A program made the translations under genes and the position numbers. From assembly GCA_024103215.1 (NCBI GenBank), contig JAGFIY010000104.1:1-64000 (forward strand): DNA of 64,000 nt, read 5' to 3'. The first letter of the stretch is position 1, and each line of letters starts with the position of its first letter. Below the pieces are notes generated by a model, which worked only from the letters and a program-made list of their open reading frames with translations, did no database searches and had not been told where the DNA came from. Below, one piece after another: positions 13,589 to 27,650 of the stretch. This DNA comes from Melioribacteraceae bacterium. GTDB taxonomy: Bacteria > Bacteroidota > Ignavibacteria > Ignavibacteriales > Melioribacteraceae.

Positions 13589-14296
13589 TTAAACGGAGAG
13601 ATTTTTAAGATCTTCAATTTTTCCAACATCGTAAACAAAATCATTATTATGCTCGTAAGCTATGATGTTCAAAAATTGTGCGGCGCGTAAATAAAGATCA
13701 ATTATCGAAAAAATTTTCCATTCCGGGAAATATTGAAACAGTCGTGGATGAATAATCTGAATACCGCTGAAAGAGAGTTCGTTTAATTCATTTTCATCTC
13801 GGGAGAGTATTATCTCACCGGTTTTAATATTTTTCCATCCACAAAGAATTCCCTCATTGTTGAAAAGTAATTTTCGAGAACTCTTTCTGTTTTGAACAGC
13901 CAACAGAGCAGCATACTTATTTTTATCGAACGAATTGATAAATTTACCTAAGTTGATATTAGATATTATATCCACATTATGAATTAGAATCGGTTCGTCA
14001 ATTTGGAATGCGGATGAAACTTTTTTCAATCCTCCACCAGTCTCAAGAAGTTCATTAGTTTCGTCGGATATTGTGATTTTTACACCAAAATTATTTTGCG
14101 ATCTCAAAAATTCCTTAATTTGTCCTGCAAAATGATGAACGTTTATAATTATCTCGTCAATGCCTGCAGATAAAAATTTTTCAATTACAATCTGAAGAAG
14201 AGGTTTGCCGTTTATTTGAACCAAGGCTTTGGGAATTTTTTGTGTGATTGGACTCAGTCTGGTTCCGAGTCCGGCAGCGAAAATCATTCCTTTCAT
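13589..14296 (-). CDS. murU: sugar-1-phosphate nucleotidyltransferase, MurU-like
   Basis: The 235-residue protein starts with the nucleotidyltransferase signature GLGTRL (9-14) and the catalytic lysine of IPKAL (Lys23), followed by LLETGGGL (83-90) and a metal-binding Asp109 in HNVDII. Size and signature fit the MurU/HddC branch, in which MurU makes UDP-MurNAc from MurNAc-1-phosphate in the cell-wall recycling route that bypasses GlmU and fosfomycin-sensitive MurA. The gene overlaps by four bases (ATGA) the AmgK-like kinase upstream, and the AmgK/MurU pair is the known recycling couple, so this assignment rests on both sequence and neighbour. A mannose-1-phosphate guanylyltransferase remains possible. 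Two inverted repeats follow its stop. Confidence 0.78.
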   Translation of the reverse strand: MKGMIFAAGLGTRLSPITQKIPKALVQINGKPLLQIVIEKFLSAGIDEIIINVHHFAGQIKEFLRSQNNFGVKITISDETNELLETGGGLKKVSSAFQIDEPILIHNVDIISNINLGKFINSFDKNKYAALLAVQNRKSSRKLLFNNEGILCGWKNIKTGEIILSRDENELNELSFSGIQIIHPRLFQYFPEWKIFSIIDLYLRAAQFLNIIAYEHNNDFVYDVGKIEDLKNLSV

Positions 14297-15801
14297 ACTT
14301 TACCGGATTTTTCCAATTCGCGATGAATTACTTCCACAGAAATATTAAATTTTTGCCGAATCATTTCTGCAGTTTTTTCAGCGCAATAAACCGAACGATG
14401 CTGCCCCCCGGTGCAGCCAAAATAAATAGCAAGATTTTCGAAATCTCGCTCAAGATAATTTTGGATGGATGGAGTAATTGTTGAATACACATTATCCAAA
14501 AACTCTCTTGCTTCTGACTTCGTTTCCAAAAAGGAAATAACTTCTTTATCCCTTCCCGTTAATGCTTTATATTCTTCGAGCCTTCCAGGATTATTAATTG
14601 ATCTGCAGTCAAAAACAAATCCGCCGCCATTTCCGTTTGTATCCTCGGGAATTCCATCTTTGTATGAAAAGCTCTTAACTGTTACTTTTAATTTACTAGT
14701 CTTAAGCGAAATATTTTTATTATGGATAACAAATCCTTCTCTATGGCTCCGATCCAAACTATCAAACAACACTTTGAGATAATTGAGAGAATTAGGAAAT
14801 CTTTTATCACTTAGGAGTGAATCTATATAATCAACTGCATTTGGAATTTTATTTGAAAAATCTGTCTTTAACTGAATTCCTCCACGAAAACTATATGCTC
14901 CAAGAAGCTGCAAAACACGGAATATTGCATAAAAATAAAATCGTCTTTCGAACTTTTCTATGTCAATTTTAATTTTCCTTGATAACTCGGTCAGATATGT
15001 TTCATATAAGATTTTTCTTTGATCTTCAGTGAATTTTATGCTCCCGCTGAATAGTATTGAGGCAAGATCATACTGCAATGCTCCCATTCTTCCACCTTGA
15101 TAATCGATGAAATAATAATCGTCATTTTTCAACATAATATTTCGTGATTGAAAATCCCTATATACAAAGTAATTGTCATCGTCAGAATCGAGTAGTAATT
15201 TAATGAATTCATCAAATGTATTTTCTAGAACATCCTCCTCAATTTCTTCTATAGCTTGCTTTAGAAAGTAATACTTAAAGTAATTAAAATCCCATTTCAT
15301 GGAGATTTTGTCAAATTTTGGTACCGGATAACACTTCGAAAAATCGAGTCGTTGTGCTCCGTCGATTTGGAATTTAGGAAGAATTGAAACAACCTTTTTG
15401 AAATGATTCACTGCCTCAAAATCAACTTCCGCCCACCCCCAAGGGTTGCGCAAAGTATCATAAAGTGTTTGCTCCCCCAAATCTTCCACTAGATAAATTC
15501 CTAAATCAAGATCATGAGAATATATGGCGGGCACGTTCAGATTATTATCACGGAAAATTTTCGATAAATAAATAAATGCTTCATTTTCTCTACGATTTTT
15601 ATTTTCGCATAAAACTGCTTTTACTCTTCGCCCGAATACTCGATGATATTTTCTGTGTGATCCCGAGGATTTGGAATTTATGCTTTCAATTTTTTCTAAA
15701 TCTTCACCACACCATTTATTAAGCAGCAATTTAGCTTGCTTTTGCAGCTCATCTGTTCTTAATTTTTTATCTTCGTCAAATCCGTACGCGTTTAAACTCA
15801 T
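14293..15801 (-). CDS. AmgK-like amino-sugar kinase fused to a RapZ C-terminal domain
   Basis: Residues about 20-345 form an aminoglycoside-phosphotransferase-type kinase: the catalytic loop FVYRDFQSRNIM with Asp216 and the metal motif FIDYQGGRMG with Asp233 match AmgK, which phosphorylates MurNAc and GlcNAc at the anomeric position. Residues about 370-502 match the C-terminal half of RapZ/YvcJ, including GCTGGQHRS at 462-470 and a closing HRELEK. The N-terminal P-loop ATPase half of RapZ is absent. In E. coli this C-terminal half binds glucosamine-6-phosphate and the GlmZ RNA, so it could make the kinase respond to amino-sugar levels. It overlaps the MurU-like gene by four bases and starts 27 bases after the NarL-type regulator, in the same direction. 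The fusion is seen directly; the regulatory role is inferred. Confidence 0.85.
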   Translation of the reverse strand: MSLNAYGFDEDKKLRTDELQKQAKLLLNKWCGEDLEKIESINSKSSGSHRKYHRVFGRRVKAVLCENKNRRENEAFIYLSKIFRDNNLNVPAIYSHDLDLGIYLVEDLGEQTLYDTLRNPWGWAEVDFEAVNHFKKVVSILPKFQIDGAQRLDFSKCYPVPKFDKISMKWDFNYFKYYFLKQAIEEIEEDVLENTFDEFIKLLLDSDDDNYFVYRDFQSRNIMLKNDDYYFIDYQGGRMGALQYDLASILFSGSIKFTEDQRKILYETYLTELSRKIKIDIEKFERRFYFYAIFRVLQLLGAYSFRGGIQLKTDFSNKIPNAVDYIDSLLSDKRFPNSLNYLKVLFDSLDRSHREGFVIHNKNISLKTSKLKVTVKSFSYKDGIPEDTNGNGGGFVFDCRSINNPGRLEEYKALTGRDKEVISFLETKSEAREFLDNVYSTITPSIQNYLERDFENLAIYFGCTGGQHRSVYCAEKTAEMIRQKFNISVEVIHRELEKSGKV

Positions 15802-15828: not shown

Positions 15829-16461
15829 TTACATTTCTACTAATTTATTCTTTACAGCGTAAGTTGTCAATTCGGCATTGTTTTTTAACATCATTTTATC
15901 AAGAATTCGCTTACGGTAAGTACTTATAGTTTTATCACTTAGAAAGAGTTCCTCAGCAATTTCTTTAACTGTTTTACCGGCTGCAATCAGACATAGAACA
16001 TGAAATTCCCTACCGGATAATTTTTCATGCGGAGCAATAGTATCATGATCGTAAAATTTATCGGCTAAAACGGTAGAAACTTCGGGAGAAATGTATTTCT
16101 TTCCGTTCTTTACAGAATCTATAGCTTTCTCAAGTTCATCAAATGCGCTGTCCTTTGTAATGTAGCCATATGCTCCCGATTTGATAGCCCGTGCTGCAAA
16201 CATTTCCTCTTTATGAACGCTAAGTATCAATATCTTCGTATTCTTCTTTCGGTTGTTAGCGGCTTTCAATACATCTAACCCGCTTTTGTGCGGCATTGAA
16301 ATATCCATAATTACAATATCATAATTGCCGCTGATGATTTTCCGTTCCGCTTCAATTCCATCCGATGCTTCATCAACGGATTCTAAATCGTGAAATCCCT
16401 GAACGATTTTTTTCAAGCCTTCACGAACAATTGTATGATCATCTGCAATTAATATTTTCAT
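15829..16461 (-). CDS. NarL/FixJ-family response regulator with LuxR helix-turn-helix
   Basis: A receiver (1-120; Asp9/Asp8 pair in IADDH, phosphoacceptor Asp53 in IVIMDISMP, Lys near 105) precedes a LuxR-type DNA-binding domain (about 145-205) with the LSGREFHVL start and the recognition region AEELFLSDKTISTYRKRI. It is the only protein in the 25-kb signalling block with a recognisable DNA-binding domain. It follows the nine-PAS kinase by three bases; HisKA_3 kinases normally pair with NarL-type regulators, so partnership is well supported. Such regulators bind short palindromes as dimers; the inverted repeats at 13523-13559 and 27687-27717 are candidate targets, which is speculation. Confidence 0.95.
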   Translation of the reverse strand: MKILIADDHTIVREGLKKIVQGFHDLESVDEASDGIEAERKIISGNYDIVIMDISMPHKSGLDVLKAANNRKKNTKILILSVHKEEMFAARAIKSGAYGYITKDSAFDELEKAIDSVKNGKKYISPEVSTVLADKFYDHDTIAPHEKLSGREFHVLCLIAAGKTVKEIAEELFLSDKTISTYRKRILDKMMLKNNAELTTYAVKNKLVEM

Positions 16462-21053: not shown

Positions 21054-22232
21054 TTAATTGATTAGGGGAAGTTGAAAGTAAAAAGTTGAACCTTTGCCGT
21101 AAACGCTTTCAACCCAGATTATTCCTTTATGAGCTTCAATAATTTTTCGTGCTATAAACAGTCCCAATCCCATGCTTTCTTCACCGGCTGTAGATTTCGT
21201 ACTGGTTTTTTGAAAAGGATTAAACACACTTTTAAGTTCATCTTCTTTAATTCCTCTTCCTTGATCTTTCACAGCAATTTTAGCAAAATTCCTTTGGGAG
21301 AATAAATTAATTAAAATAACAGTGTTTGGTTCAGAATACTTTATTGCATTAGTTAAGAGATTGGTGAGAACTTGTTCGATTTTGTATGCATCCGCTTCAA
21401 CAAAAACATTCTCATTCTTACATTGATATTCAATTGTGATGTTTTTTGAATTAGCTATTGGATTCATCATCTTGACAATAGATAGAGTGAATTCATTCAG
21501 ATCAAATTTTTCAGTATCAAGCCTAATGTTTTCGGATTCAATCTCGCTTACATCCAGCAAATCATTTACTAGATCAAGCATAAATTTGCTTCGAGATTTA
21601 ATTAGATTAAGAAATTCAATTTGGTCGGAATTAAAATTAGATGTATCCTCCAGGATGAAATCAGTAAAATTTAGTATTTGTCCTAGGGGATTTCTTAGAT
21701 CATGAGCAGCCATCCCAAGAAAGTTATTCTTAATTTCATTCAACTGTTTCAATTTGATGTTGCTCTGTGCTAGCTGCCTTTTCAAATTTACCAAATCATT
21801 ATTCAGCCTGCTCATCTCATCAAAAGTTGATTCGACATCAGATAGTTCATCCCTTCTTAAAAATTTTTCTTTTAATATTTTCCTAATACTGTTCGACTGT
21901 TCGTTGTTTATTAAAAGAAGTTCTTCATAAAGGAAAGGGACATCATTGTTTGTTTCGAGCGCCAAGATAAAATAATCACCGTTGTTTTTCCCTCCTGAAA
22001 ATTTAAGTGGAAGAATTTCATTCTTAAGAAGAACATTTATTTCCCAATTAAAAACCACGCCGTTGATTTTCAATTCATTTTGAAATAATTCTATTTTTTT
22101 CTTCTCATCACCCACAAATAACTTTTGAAATGGAATTCCGTCTTTAATGAATAAAACTTCATCAAAACCGTTCAACAAAATGTTTTTAATTATAAAATCA
22201 TTATCACATATAAATACAATACCACGTACCAT
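21054..22232 (-). CDS. soluble histidine kinase next to the cobalamin sensor, 392 aa
   Basis: Residues 1-100 form an unassigned alpha/beta domain, possibly a degenerate PAS; about 105-168 is a coiled coil; then come HisKA (H-box GMAAHDLRNPLG, His177) and HATPase domains with the N-box NLLTNAIKY, DQGRGI and MGLGLF motifs. The glycine box SMGLGLFIAR and the ending WVESVYGKGSTFYF are intact, so it should be active. The start codon directly abuts the stop of the cobalamin-binding gene (22233), which implies coupled translation. It has no transmembrane segment and no known sensor of its own, and is the natural candidate to read the state of the cobalamin sensor and of the PAS array encoded just upstream. 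That coupling is inferred from gene order. Confidence 0.93.
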   Translation of the reverse strand: MVRGIVFICDNDFIIKNILLNGFDEVLFIKDGIPFQKLFVGDEKKKIELFQNELKINGVVFNWEINVLLKNEILPLKFSGGKNNGDYFILALETNNDVPFLYEELLLINNEQSNSIRKILKEKFLRRDELSDVESTFDEMSRLNNDLVNLKRQLAQSNIKLKQLNEIKNNFLGMAAHDLRNPLGQILNFTDFILEDTSNFNSDQIEFLNLIKSRSKFMLDLVNDLLDVSEIESENIRLDTEKFDLNEFTLSIVKMMNPIANSKNITIEYQCKNENVFVEADAYKIEQVLTNLLTNAIKYSEPNTVILINLFSQRNFAKIAVKDQGRGIKEDELKSVFNPFQKTSTKSTAGEESMGLGLFIARKIIEAHKGIIWVESVYGKGSTFYFQLPLIN

Positions 22233-23306
22233 CTATCCAACCTTCAATAATCGATTTGCAAGAGTTATTGCTTCGGCTGCATCGACGGCATATCCGTCCG
22301 CGCCTATATTTTGCCATAATTCGGGATTTGAATTAAATGCCTTACCTCCAACTATGATTTTCAAACTAGTTTTATCAAATTCATTTCTTAATTCCGATAT
22401 AAGACTTTTAACCTTAGGGATGTTAAAGGCAATAGTAGCAGAAATAGCAAGAACTTCGCTGCCGGTTTCTTTTATCATTTGGCTAATACTTTTCACCGGT
22501 GTATTTGCCCCGAGATAAAAAGTATTCCAGCCTTCAATCTCAAAAAAATCTGCGACCATTCTAATTCCCAATTCATGAAGTTCACCACTAACACTAGCAG
22601 CTATAAGATTTCGTCCGTTTTTTTTCGTTGTAAAGATATACTCATACAATCTTGACATTATAAATTGAGTTGCTGCCGTACAGTAATGTTCCATTGCAAC
22701 ACTTATTTTATTCATCTGCCAAAGTCTTCCAATTTCCCATTGAACTGGTTGAAAGACGTAAAGATATATTTCTTTTATATTCGCACCAGTTTGCATTTGA
22801 TTCAGTATAATTCTTTCAGCTGAGGTTCTCTCCTTGCGCAGAAGAGAATTCATATATTGCTGTGCAATAATGTTCAACTTATTATTTTCTGAAATGAAAG
22901 AATTTTGTTCGGCTGGCAGTGCATCATATCTTTCAAGCACATAATTAACTATTGACACAAGTTGTTGTTCAAATCTATCCGAAAATAATTCTTCTGCGGT
23001 TTCTTTTATATGTGAAAAGGGAACCTTTTGATAATCGACCGGAAGATTGATGCTCGTGAAAAACATCTTAAGCCAAGCAGCATAATCAAGAAAGAGGTTT
23101 TTATCGTTTAAACAAACTGCTGCTGTTAGATGTTCAAGATGATAATTAAGATCTTCCTTTGTTCTTTCTACACCATTCTTACCATATTTAATTTCAATAT
23201 CCGGGAATGCCTCAAAGGATTTTAAAATTAATTTTTTTAGAAATAACTCTCTATCTTCTTTCAGTTGAGCGCATAAACTGTTATTATCAAAATTTTCTTC
23301 CATCAT
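22233..23306 (-). CDS. cobalamin-binding photosensor-like protein without DNA-binding domain (CarH-type B12 module)
   Basis: The 357-residue protein has three parts: an unassigned helical domain (about 15-130), a four-helix cap of the B12-binding_2 type (about 140-228) and a Rossmann-like B12-binding domain (about 232-355). It carries both signatures of the adenosylcobalamin photoreceptors CarH/LitR. The cap has Trp196, nine residues, then Glu206-His207 (W-x9-EH). The Rossmann domain has ExHxxG at 242-247 (His244 the expected lower cobalt ligand), 41 residues, S289-x-T291, 28 residues, then Gly320-Gly321. CarH has a MerR helix-turn-helix in front; here that is absent. The residue after Trp196 is Gln197, whereas Thermus CarH has the light-state ligand His132 there. 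It sits nine bases after a ten-PAS gene and abuts a kinase gene, so its output is probably protein-protein. Light sensing is inferred from motifs. Confidence 0.88.
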   Translation of the reverse strand: MMEENFDNNSLCAQLKEDRELFLKKLILKSFEAFPDIEIKYGKNGVERTKEDLNYHLEHLTAAVCLNDKNLFLDYAAWLKMFFTSINLPVDYQKVPFSHIKETAEELFSDRFEQQLVSIVNYVLERYDALPAEQNSFISENNKLNIIAQQYMNSLLRKERTSAERIILNQMQTGANIKEIYLYVFQPVQWEIGRLWQMNKISVAMEHYCTAATQFIMSRLYEYIFTTKKNGRNLIAASVSGELHELGIRMVADFFEIEGWNTFYLGANTPVKSISQMIKETGSEVLAISATIAFNIPKVKSLISELRNEFDKTSLKIIVGGKAFNSNPELWQNIGADGYAVDAAEAITLANRLLKVG

Positions 23307-23315
23307 AATCCCGAG

Positions 23316-26300
23316 TTAATTATTTTCATCTTTGGATATAGTGTATTTCGGTCTTTCTCCTAACTTACTGAAGAGCTCATTGATTTCTTTCTTCAATTCA
23401 ACCATTTTAAGTTCGCGTCCTACAAGAAAAGAATTCAACTTTTCCAATTCCTTAACTTTTTCTATCAATTGTTTTTCTGTATCTCTTTTATCAGTAATAT
23501 CAACCCCTGCAGTCAGAAGAGCTTTCTTATTCTCATATTCTATAAGAGCCGAGGAAAAGTCCAGCCACTTAACTTTCTTATCCTTTGTAAATATTTTAAG
23601 TTCGTATCGCGTTTCACTAATCTCATTTTTAATTCTTTTTCCGGCTTGCTCAATCACAATATCTTTCATATCAGGATGTACAACATCAAGGGGACTTATT
23701 GTATCGATATCTGCTTTTGAGTATCCGGTAACTTCCTCCCAATACTTATTTACATACAAGTACTTTGTTACATCCTTTGGATCGATAATCGAGATGGCAA
23801 CAAGTGCGTTTTCAGCTAGTGTTTTAAATTTCTCCTCACTCTTAATTAATTTTTCCTCGAAGATTTTTCTCTCGGTGATATCGCTAATACTTGAAATTAT
23901 CACCGGTTTATTCTTAAGGTTAATCAGTTCTGCCGAATAAAAGCCAAAGTATTCTTTTCCATTTTTGATTCGAAACCTATATTCTCTGCCGCGAACTTTT
24001 ATTCCGTTCATCAAATCGTTAATAACTTCTAATCTATCCTGTTCGTTAACCCACATATTCAGTTCAACCGTAATCTTCCCGATAACTTCTTCCCGTGTAA
24101 ATCCGGACAATTCGACAAAACCATCATTGACATCAATAATCGAGCTGTCCTCCACAGTTGTTAGAACAATAGCATAAGGAGCCGAGATAAAAGCTTTCAT
24201 AAAAGTTTCTTCGCTCTCTTTAAGTTTTTGTTCCGCTTCCATTCTTTCTGAAATATCATTCATCGTGCCTTCATAAACGACTTCGCCTTCGGGATTCAAC
24301 GATGAAACAGCATTAATAGAAAGCCAAAGTTGTTTGCCAGATTTATGATTTGCCTCTATTTCATAATACCTGACAAATCCTTGTTTAGCTAGCCGGTCAA
24401 TCAAAAATTCTCGATCTTTATGATGTTTATATAGTTTTTTAATATTATTCAATTCATCTAGCATCTCTTGAACCGAATCGAAACCAAGCATATTTGCAAG
24501 TGCATCATTAGCCAATTCGATTTTTCCATCGGGATTAGTCCTAAAAATTCCCAGTGCGGAGTTTTCAAAAATCGATCTGAAATTTTCTTCGCTTCTTTCA
24601 AGTTCATCAATAAACTTTTTCCTTTCAGTAATATCACGAACGGCAGTAACTCTAACGCTTCTGCCTTTATAAGCATATATTCGTCCCTCAAATTCAACCC
24701 AAAACTTAGAACCGTCTTTTCTCTTACCGAGCACTTCATAGGGCAGTTCATAATTTGATAGAATATTTTTTTTCACTTTATCTCGATATTCTTCAGAGAC
24801 AACATCAGTACCATTAAGACCGATGAATTCATTGTATTCATACCCAAACAATTCGCATGCGGCTTTATTTGCTTCTATGCAGTATCCATTTTCCGAAAAG
24901 ACCAGACCTTCTTTAGTTGCTTCAGAAAACGCACGGTTTTTCTCCTCACTTTCCTTCAACGCACTTAAAGCATAAGTTTCCTTTGTGACATCCCACGATA
25001 CACCACCAATAAACTTTCTTCCGGTAGGAGATATTATCGGAAAGTACTGAGTTTTAAAATATTTTTTTGAACCATCTTCAAGATTCAGTTCAACGTCGCT
25101 CCTAATAAATTCACCATTTAGAATTCTCTTATCTTCTTCGGCAAATTTATCCGCTATTTCTTTGTCAAAATAATCGTGGGCTGATTTCCCAAGCCAATCC
25201 TTTACATTCAACTCCTCTTCATTAAATCGGTTAACGAACTCATAAATTCCATCCTCGTTTTTGATAAATATTCCTGCGGGGATATGATCCATAAAAATTC
25301 GAAAACGTTCTTCGCTCTCCAAAAGTTTTTTGTTTGCTTCCACTCGCTCAGTAATGTCGCGAGAAACCCCTAATAATTCTTTAGGTTTACCTTCGCTATC
25401 GAACAATGCTTTAACTTTTAATTCAACTTTAACAATGCTTCCATCCTTTTTTGGTTGGTCAACTTCAAAGACTAAATAATCCCCAAACTTTTGAGGTTCT
25501 TGAAGAAATTTAGTTAACTGTTGTTTTAACAAATCTGCATATTCACTCGTAACTGCTTGGTCAATTGTCTGATGGAGTGCTTCATCAACCGTAAATCCTC
25601 TAAGCTTTGTAACTGAAGGAGATATGTATGTAAATTCTCCGTTGATGTTCATTGTCCAAATTACATCATCAATATTTTCAGCGAGAAATTCAACTCTCGA
25701 TTGCGATATAGAAAGCGCCAGTTCGTTCAGTTTTCGCCCTGTTATATCTCTTGTAATTCCAATAATTCTGCTTGGATTTCCTCCGGGGTCACGAATTAAT
25801 GCAGTGTTTAATTCACCGTAAAACGTTGAACCGTCTTTGCGCAGCATCTTATATTCACGAGCTTCGGTTTTACCGGATTGAATTCCTCTCATCATTTGGC
25901 TTATTGCTTTTAATCGCTCGGGTCTGACAATAAGATCAAGCGCGCTCTTTCCAATCAGTTCACGAGAATTATTATAGCCATACATCTCGATTATCCTGGG
26001 CGATACTTCAATAATATTACCATCAAGATCAGTCATTGTTATTCCATCAGGAGAAGTTTCAACAAGAGTGCGGTATAAATCTTCGCTTCGAGTTAGTTTG
26101 ATTTGACTTTCTCTTTGAACGGTAATATCCGAAACTGTAGATAAAAATCCGGTTATTTCACCATAATCGTTAACGAGTATTGTATCGTTCCATTCACACC
26201 ATATCTTTTTTCCGCTTCTTGTTCTGTTTTGAACAACAATCGATGAAAGCTGTTTGCCTTGTCGAAGTTGTTCAATTCTCATTTTTATTTTCTGCAAACT

Positions 26301-27650
26301 GGTTTCTGAGAATATCAGATCATCAAACTTTCTTCCCACAGCTTCAGATTTTTTATAACCGAAAATTGTTTCAGCTCCGTTGTTCCATTCAATTATCTTT
26401 AGATTGCTTTCCCACGCGATAATTCCCAGCGGTGTTGATTCAAAAATTGCTTTATATTTTTTTTGACTCTGAATTAACTCTTCGGAAACTCTTTTCCTGT
26501 CGTCAATGTCAATATGAACCCCAACTGCCCGCAGAGGTTTTCCTTTTTCATCACGCTCTGAAATTTTACCCCAATTAAGCACCCATTTATAATTTCCGGA
26601 TTTTGTTTTAAGTCGATGTTCAATTTTGAAATACGGAATCTCACCGACTTCGTGCAGATCTTTTATTCTTTGTACTTTTTCTATATCATCCGGATGAAGA
26701 AGTTTTTCCCAGAAATTAAGATCGCTATTTATTTCATCTAAAGTATATCCCAGCATCGAAGCCCAATAAGAATTTCGATAAACTTTTCTGGTTTTAAAAT
26801 CCTGATCCCAAAGTCCAAGCTGGGAGCCTTCTATAGCAAGATTTAGCCTCATCTCGCTTTCGTTTAGTGCTTTCTGTGCAATTTTAAGTTCCGTAATGTT
26901 TGAGAAAACAACCAGTATCAAATCATCTTTAAGCGGCGTGACTGTCGATAAGAAAAATTGCTTCGTTTTGGGGAAATATCTTGGGACCTTTATTTCATTT
27001 CTAGTTTTATGTACTTTTTCAAAAATTACTAATATATCTTGGATCTCATCCTTTCCATAAACTTCGCTGGCAAGTTTGCCGACGACATCAGCCGACTTAA
27101 GCTGCATGTACTGTTCATAAGCTTGGTTGACTTCGAGTATTTGCCAGTCAATTAATTTACCTTCTTTGTCTAGTATTAGTCGATCAATAATCACGCCCTC
27201 ACCGAGATTATTTACCAATTCCTTATACCAATAATCCTCATCAATAATACCGGAAGAGGGTAATTGAAGGTTTTTGTTTTTAGCCGAAATAATTCTTTCA
27301 CGCAGAATAATATTACTTAATCGATTTAGTTCTGTTGAGCTTATTACTTCATTAAATCCCATATTAATGAAATATTCGTATTCCACCGAACTGAATTCTT
27401 CATCAATGAGAACAACTATAAAATTTTTATTTACAAATATTTCTTTGATTTTTTCGTCAACTGAACTTATGTTTTTTTCATCCACGATTATAATTTCAGC
27501 TTCCCCGGAATTTATTTTTTCTAATAATTCCGTTTTGGATTGAATTATTTTCGAACTCTCTATTTTCATTTCATTATTCAGTTCAGAAATAATTTTGTCA
27601 GCAAGAAAGTCAGATTTTGTAAAAATGATTAGGTTAGCAATTGATCTCAT
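23316..27650 (-). CDS. ten-PAS protein with pseudo-receiver and no kinase domain, 1444 aa
   Basis: Residues 5-125 have the length and strand pattern of a receiver but are degenerate: the N-terminal acidic pair is missing (IIFTKSD), an aspartate remains at 57 and the conserved lysine is absent. Ten PAS/PAC units follow, starting near 140, 265, 390, 512, 635, 765, 885, 1005, 1130 and 1255. The chain ends in a coiled coil (about 1378-1430) containing VGRELKMVELKKEI, a linker often seen just before a kinase domain, but only a short polar tail follows and the gene stops. No HisKA, HATPase, GGDEF or phosphatase domain is present. The stop is followed nine bases later by the cobalamin sensor and then a separate kinase. 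It probably works as a scaffold or sensor in trans. The start has GGTG a short distance upstream. Confidence 0.92.
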   Translation of the reverse strand: MRSIANLIIFTKSDFLADKIISELNNEMKIESSKIIQSKTELLEKINSGEAEIIIVDEKNISSVDEKIKEIFVNKNFIVVLIDEEFSSVEYEYFINMGFNEVISSTELNRLSNIILRERIISAKNKNLQLPSSGIIDEDYWYKELVNNLGEGVIIDRLILDKEGKLIDWQILEVNQAYEQYMQLKSADVVGKLASEVYGKDEIQDILVIFEKVHKTRNEIKVPRYFPKTKQFFLSTVTPLKDDLILVVFSNITELKIAQKALNESEMRLNLAIEGSQLGLWDQDFKTRKVYRNSYWASMLGYTLDEINSDLNFWEKLLHPDDIEKVQRIKDLHEVGEIPYFKIEHRLKTKSGNYKWVLNWGKISERDEKGKPLRAVGVHIDIDDRKRVSEELIQSQKKYKAIFESTPLGIIAWESNLKIIEWNNGAETIFGYKKSEAVGRKFDDLIFSETSLQKIKMRIEQLRQGKQLSSIVVQNRTRSGKKIWCEWNDTILVNDYGEITGFLSTVSDITVQRESQIKLTRSEDLYRTLVETSPDGITMTDLDGNIIEVSPRIIEMYGYNNSRELIGKSALDLIVRPERLKAISQMMRGIQSGKTEAREYKMLRKDGSTFYGELNTALIRDPGGNPSRIIGITRDITGRKLNELALSISQSRVEFLAENIDDVIWTMNINGEFTYISPSVTKLRGFTVDEALHQTIDQAVTSEYADLLKQQLTKFLQEPQKFGDYLVFEVDQPKKDGSIVKVELKVKALFDSEGKPKELLGVSRDITERVEANKKLLESEERFRIFMDHIPAGIFIKNEDGIYEFVNRFNEEELNVKDWLGKSAHDYFDKEIADKFAEEDKRILNGEFIRSDVELNLEDGSKKYFKTQYFPIISPTGRKFIGGVSWDVTKETYALSALKESEEKNRAFSEATKEGLVFSENGYCIEANKAACELFGYEYNEFIGLNGTDVVSEEYRDKVKKNILSNYELPYEVLGKRKDGSKFWVEFEGRIYAYKGRSVRVTAVRDITERKKFIDELERSEENFRSIFENSALGIFRTNPDGKIELANDALANMLGFDSVQEMLDELNNIKKLYKHHKDREFLIDRLAKQGFVRYYEIEANHKSGKQLWLSINAVSSLNPEGEVVYEGTMNDISERMEAEQKLKESEETFMKAFISAPYAIVLTTVEDSSIIDVNDGFVELSGFTREEVIGKITVELNMWVNEQDRLEVINDLMNGIKVRGREYRFRIKNGKEYFGFYSAELINLKNKPVIISSISDITERKIFEEKLIKSEEKFKTLAENALVAISIIDPKDVTKYLYVNKYWEEVTGYSKADIDTISPLDVVHPDMKDIVIEQAGKRIKNEISETRYELKIFTKDKKVKWLDFSSALIEYENKKALLTAGVDITDKRDTEKQLIEKVKELEKLNSFLVGRELKMVELKKEINELFSKLGERPKYTISKDENN

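Follow-up and report, generated by a model that had tools for sequence, protein, structure and literature searches.

The window, a continuous stretch of 64,000 nucleotides from a Melioribacteraceae bacterium, encodes on its minus strand a B12-binding protein of 357 residues, here assigned to the photocobilins, and, starting directly behind it, a histidine kinase. The features of this pair and of the gene upstream of it are the following.

23316-27650, minus strand: PAS array upstream of the photocobilin, with no kinase domain
22233..23306, minus strand: putative photocobilin, 357 aa, ATG start, N-terminal photoglobin and C-terminal light-type B12 domain
22887..23285, minus strand: photoglobin domain, residues ~8-140, a phycobiliprotein-like globin by profile
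22647..22862, minus strand: four-helix cap, Pfam B12-binding_2, residues 149-220 (8.8e-10), carrying W196-x9-E206-H207
22266..22607, minus strand: Rossmann B12-binding domain, residues 234-347 (Pfam 1.4e-18), predicted lower ligand H244
21054..22232, minus strand: partner histidine kinase, 392 aa, ATG directly after the photocobilin TAG; H177 phospho-acceptor, N and G boxes intact
21897..22232, minus strand: partner domain, kinase residues 1-112 (~110 aa), no Pfam family, PAS-like
21531..21731, minus strand: HisKA dimerisation/phospho-acceptor domain of the partner kinase (Pfam 3.8e-13)
21063..21392, minus strand: HATPase_c domain of the partner kinase (Pfam 6.6e-25)

The surrounding minus-strand run of signalling genes (2938-27650) also includes two multi-PAS kinases, a 1624-aa REC-PAS-GAF kinase, small receivers and a NarL-type regulator (15829-16461). 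Beside these signalling genes, 14293-15801 on the same strand joins an APH-like phosphotransferase domain and a RapZ C-terminal domain (Pfam 1.4e-34) in one protein.

An initial annotation, made from the DNA letters, had picked out the minus-strand reading frame 22233-23306 for its Trp196-x9-Glu206-His207 and Rossmann motifs, and all the residues it quoted are present (W196, E206, H207, E242, H244, G247, S289, T291, G320 and G321); in 73 sequences from many phyla the B12 signature residues are invariant or almost so, far beyond chance. The B12 domain contains W-x9-EH, an E/DxH lower ligand and GxxW/GxxxP, the motifs of photocobilins (PMC10979010, PMC11796333), and all four elements of the SignatureFinder light signature, defined as GxxW, EH, GxxH and GxxxP (PMC11796333), which read GRLW, EH, GELH and GANTP in the window protein. 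Among related genomes, proteins of the photocobilin, short B12-only and MerR types share W-x9-EH, which none of 14 rows of the corrinoid-carrier type (13 short carriers and MetH) has. In a PDB sequence search the photocobilin entries 8J2X/8J2W rank first (2.4e-22), and the AF2 model (mean pLDDT 90.2, pTM 0.85) retrieves almost exclusively B12-domain structures in whole-model fold searches. The best VIA-align superpositions of its B12 part are on photocobilins (Z 26.2 and 26.0; for the cap and Rossmann domains on SasPcob, Z 26.2 and rmsd 1.8 over 208 residues), and the overlay on Thermus CarH that had been proposed as a check gives a good but lower score (Z about 20.8). No relatives were detected among the viral contigs searched.

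The N-terminal 148 residues, which the initial annotation had called an unassigned helical domain, do lack any Pfam domain and are all-helical in the AF2 model, but a profile of relatives gives them a name. In the PDB search with the whole protein, residues 31-80 also align faintly with SasPcob's C-terminal globin. The globin sequence searched by itself reaches an E-value of only about 0.5 in the PDB, so that a profile of 58 rows was required. This A3 profile, built from 58 domains of relatives, matches SasPcob (3.5e-8), AbPcob (3.8e-5) and allophycocyanin (3.3e-8), together with a long list of further allophycocyanins and phycocyanins, the phycobiliproteins at about 3e-8. By profile, then, the region is a photoglobin rather than an unassigned replacement for a MerR domain, and the absence of a DNA-binding domain that had been claimed is borne out, the Pfam scan finding neither an HTH nor a MerR DNA-binding domain in the protein. 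In the profile alignment, D52 and W78 correspond to Asp270 and Trp296 of SasPcob (PDB chain positions + 5, anchored on Trp61 of PMC10979010), which hold biliverdin and contact the corrin (PMC10979010); both are identical in 73/73 sequences and are the sole invariant columns of the globin domain. The pocket is thus of the SasPcob style, with Asp and Trp and no covalent Cys, and T49-K-E51-D52 occupies the place of the phycobiliprotein CxRD site without its cysteine. A photoglobin with these biliverdin-pocket residues suggests that the window protein probably carries two chromophore sites, not one. Elsewhere in the family, 22 of the 73 photoglobins (the window protein not included) have a Cys at position 49, the CxRD attachment site, and covalent bilin attachment may therefore exist in part of it; a link between Cys49 and the presence of heme oxygenase was considered and rejected, the two being unrelated (p 0.63). 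Photocobilin groups in which the B12 domain comes first and others in which it comes last have been mentioned before (PMC10979010), and the N-terminal position of the globin is therefore not new in itself.

A tree of 62 B12 domains, arbitrarily rooted and with SasPcob attached by a long branch at only 91/58, places the window protein inside the photocobilin clade (98/93), whose sister is a group of short B12-only proteins (98/87), with corrinoid carriers (100/93) and MerR-CarH proteins (100/99) on separate branches. Membership among methyltransferase-type B12 carriers, which the initial annotation had named as grounds for abandoning its reading, is thus not what the tree gives. Its term "CarH-type" holds for the light-signature B12 domain, which is CarH-like, and fails for the protein as a whole: a CarH/LitR derivative was rejected in favour of a photocobilin, given the missing MerR domain, the separate branch and the photoglobin at the N-terminus, and the NCBIfam CarH model scores it at 70 bits against a cut-off of 400. 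Q197 of the window protein stands in the place of H132 of Thermus CarH, the residue following W131, and is Q in 65 of 73 sequences. SasPcob likewise has Gln there in the PDB alignment, and its light state is water/hydroxide-ligated (PMC10979010); with Q197 instead of H132, such a water-ligated light state, rather than a bis-His one, would be expected in the window protein. Other light-type B12 proteins were met along the way. The same genome encodes a MerR-type CarH elsewhere (L005); B12-only proteins of ~215 aa with the full light signature are common in the order (L018-L033, L047-L051) and form one tight clade (100/100) that has neither globin nor partner domain and varies in its neighbours; and genome G226 holds a divergent 365-aa photocobilin with the light signature (L149), a possible outgroup of the paired clade. 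Taken together, the window protein is almost certainly a photocobilin, whose family and domain order were both known already, and by analogy with its characterised relatives it is likely to be a photoreceptor, expected to bind AdoCbl and perhaps biliverdin, and to respond to green and possibly to red light.

The link to the kinase is both stronger and narrower than the initial annotation could show. In the ten nearest relatives, all of the same order, the next gene is a homologous histidine kinase (10/10), homologous from its first residues in nine, a frameshifted case in genome G044 counted. The PAS array upstream and the genes beyond the kinase differ between these relatives, and no conserved response regulator lies beside the kinase. 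In G044 a frameshift or stop separates the globin from the B12 domain (L046, 8839-9902), which are intact in the same genus (G051), and this may be either decay or a sequencing error. The tenth relative (L041, 8133-9708) has a B12 protein without globin next to a kinase without its first ~97 residues, the two still adjacent; a tRNA-like sequence lies upstream of that pair. One scan of 84,980 species genomes then yielded 80 relatives, picked by photocobilin alignment alone, under more than a dozen phylum labels, many of them on metagenome bins and some perhaps wrong: Ignavibacteriota, Bacteroidota, Chloroflexota, Desulfobacterota, Pseudomonadota, Acidobacteriota, Verrucomicrobiota, Gemmatimonadota, Spirochaetota, Bacillota (Heliobacterium, Paenibacillus), Lokiarchaeota and Methanomicrobiales, among others. 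At 74 of these 80 loci the gene directly downstream opens with a homologue of residues 1-112 of the window kinase, at a median gap of 14 bp (at one of them, L072, an extra small ORF may intervene). The remaining six comprise a contig end (L053), two fusions of photocobilin and histidine kinase in a single chain, both without the partner domain (L085, L100), a hybrid kinase without the domain (L122) and two further loci without it (L082, L088). The conserved unit is the photocobilin and the directly downstream gene only, PAS arrays excluded, so that of the operon with PAS array and kinase proposed initially the kinase stands and the array falls away. Very probably, to judge from this gene arrangement, the photocobilin controls the adjacent kinase.

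The partner domain itself has so far been found solely beside photocobilin-type B12 proteins. Among 247 genomes of the phylum it occurs 13 times, in 13/13 cases on the same contig and strand and directly beside the photocobilin, and the globin turns up in one genome more, 14 in all, owing to a weak, partial match in G226, which has no partner-domain match; the co-occurrence has a Fisher value of 9e-21, which is only a guide since related genomes are not independent. In 301 genomes of the phylum of a Chloroflexi relative it was found twice, both times beside a photocobilin-type B12 protein. No convincing Pfam match was obtained in 31 partner-domain members (PAS matches 0/31) and no match in the PDB, and against a four-row set of the window's PAS domains the hhalign probability is 1.6%, a value that is not decisive for so small a set. 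The AF2 model, of moderate confidence, has strands and a helix in the order strand-strand-helix-strand-strand-strand, PAS/LOV kinases are among the matches spanning kinase residues 1-392, and one divergent member matches PAS_4 (3.8e-6); from the model, these whole-length matches and the PAS_4 match, the domain is probably a divergent PAS.

The part behind the domain is variable. A Pfam scan of 17 domain-bearing partner proteins gave 15 histidine kinases, some hybrid and some with extra PAS domains, one GGDEF protein and one bare domain; these 17 were picked for unusual length, and plain kinases should be even commoner overall. One Chloroflexi genome (G395) has two versions (L159 and L160): in one the output behind the partner domain is STAS, and a light-type B12 protein without globin follows; in the other a second photocobilin, its gene running into the start of the next one, precedes a protein that by eye is PAS-like at its N-terminus and GGDEF-like at its C-terminus, which repeats the plan of the other pairs. 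The output thus changes, among histidine kinase, hybrid kinase, PAS-kinase, GGDEF and STAS, and the pairing stays. Varied outputs, together with the absence of the domain from the L100 and L085 fusions, indicate that it behaves as the receiver of the photocobilin signal, though not an indispensable one, since in L041 the B12-kinase pair persists without globin and domain. L041 possibly reflects a joint loss of the two, which prompted the idea of a globin docked on the partner domain; L130 and G395, pairs that lack the globin and keep the domain, contradict joint loss as a rule and weaken the docking idea.

The observed domains and residues, the conservation of the gene pair, the existence of a dedicated partner domain and the natural fusions are best accounted for, we think probably, by a light switch split over two polypeptides, in which the photocobilin regulates the kinase in trans. 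By analogy with SasPcob, AbDPcob and CarH, from which we infer the photochemical and signal-transfer steps, AdoCbl would be bound in the dark via H244, its adenosyl group gripped by W196 and E206-H207, in what is probably a head-to-tail dimer, and the globin may hold a linear tetrapyrrole next to D52 and W78. Illumination, with green light or, via the bilin, with red, would cleave the Co-C bond; loss of the adenosyl group would shift the E206/H207 helix and rearrange the dimer; and the altered photocobilin would engage the kinase's PAS-like N-terminal domain differently, switching autophosphorylation. In this scheme the cofactors, the photochemistry, the physical contact, the sign of the effect and the response regulator that would receive the phosphate are all inferred. 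There is direct precedent for action in trans, since a diguanylate cyclase on its own chain responds when standalone photocobilin domains are added (PMC10979010).

The chief doubt concerns the bilin. The genome of the window encodes a PduO-type cobalamin adenosyltransferase (2.0e-62), and canonical heme oxygenase (PF01126) has no match in it or in the genomes of the order (0/58); AdoCbl is therefore to be expected and the bilin is uncertain. Across phyla PF01126 is missing from 44/50 photocobilin genomes and present in 6/50, and HutW, for anaerobic ring opening, gives sub-threshold matches only, as it does in most control genomes. Biliverdin supply is a feature of the host and does not define the family, but with canonical heme oxygenase missing from the order and from 44/50 genomes, several of which carry the names of strict anaerobes, there may be no bilin, or a different one. 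The same switch may thus have a bilin-free globin that serves as a docking or stabilising domain, with green/blue sensing by B12 alone, a sub-case of the split light switch whose likelihood overlaps with it and which we hold to be a real possibility, short of the expected one. It agrees with AbDPcob, a weak biliverdin binder that is nonetheless green-light responsive (PMC10979010), and with the loss of the globin from some pairs (L130, G395); yet a scaffold would hardly need both W78 and D52, whose SasPcob counterpart holds three coplanar pyrroles, in 73/73 sequences, and HutW is the only tetrapyrrole-opening enzyme covered besides PF01126, leaving room for other heme-opening families or a bilin from outside.

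Nor does the pair seem to be one part of something larger. Nearly all minus-strand genes from 2938 to 27650 are signalling proteins and relatives too often sit in kinase clusters, so the real unit might be the entire island, with its PAS arrays, its HisKA_3 kinase and its NarL-type regulator, and the photocobilin might be one input of several; among relatives, however, conservation is limited to the photocobilin and the gene after it, and the flanks change, which makes this unlikely. Rather improbable, too, is a sensor of cobalamin status, a pair that signals AdoCbl availability to the kinase with light incidental. Its hosts are often dark-habitat anaerobes by name (Desulfobacterota, Methanomicrobiales, Lokiarchaeota), and the output of AbDPcob differs already between apo and AdoCbl forms (PMC10979010), but the adenosyl-gripping W-x9-EH is invariant here and missing from non-photoreceptor carriers, the B12 domain groups with photocobilins, and phototrophs, the Heliobacteria, are among the hosts. 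A corrinoid methyl-transfer carrier next to a kinase by chance shares the same two Pfam B12 domains and weak NCBIfam matches to MtgC/MtbC, and can practically be discounted, as carriers form their own branch (100/93) without W-x9-EH, no methyltransferase adjoins the photocobilin in the window, and kinase pairing is almost universal.

The split light switch, if correct, bears on a young family for which one enzyme output has been demonstrated experimentally: the tight pairing names a likely physiological target for an entire branch of photocobilins, and offers a testable two-component system under light control, its sensor and its kinase being distinct polypeptides, whose swappable parts would be useful for optogenetics. 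The receiver-like domain without a Pfam entry would merit one, and the missing heme oxygenase raises a testable question, namely which bilin, if any, hosts place in the pocket. A broader proposal is tentative and, as a whole, doubtful: a widespread prokaryotic two-gene module in which a photocobilin acts in trans on a PAS-like receiver with varied outputs (histidine kinase, diguanylate cyclase, STAS) and in which the globin, where the host lacks heme oxygenase, as some strict anaerobes and archaea do, would hold a linear tetrapyrrole not made by the known oxygen-dependent route.

B12 sensors without a DNA-binding domain are already known, from photoglobins in 2022 and photocobilins in 2024. 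No description of a photocobilin paired with a dedicated-domain kinase was found in the photocobilin/BBAG-2 literature, a comparison that left aside the photoglobin study of Schneider et al. 2022, which reportedly discusses gene neighbourhoods. Among known systems the closest is SasPcob of Saccharothrix syringae (PDB 8J2W/8J2X; PMC10979010), also a standalone light-type B12 domain with a photoglobin and no DNA-binding domain, which shares W-x9-EH, the lower His, the Q beside the Trp and the Asp and Trp of the biliverdin pocket; its globin is C-terminal, whereas that of the window protein is N-terminal, and the window adds a dedicated kinase gene downstream in a genome without canonical heme oxygenase. 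AbDPcob of Acidimicrobiaceae (PDB 8J2Y), whose activity rises >10-fold when illuminated (PMC10979010), is likewise a photocobilin in control of a signalling enzyme, as the window protein probably is, but it has GGDEF fused in one chain where the window has a separate kinase as output, and His in place of the biliverdin Asp that the window protein keeps. CarH/LitR of Thermus thermophilus (PDB 5C8D) has the same set of AdoCbl-binding residues and B12-domain fold, and the window protein differs from it in having no MerR domain and no counterpart of H132 and in standing on a separate branch. The photoglobins (Schneider et al. 2022) and the BBAG-2 globins (PMC10151467) provide the remaining likeness, a globin of the bilin-binding type linked to a B12 domain in signalling systems.
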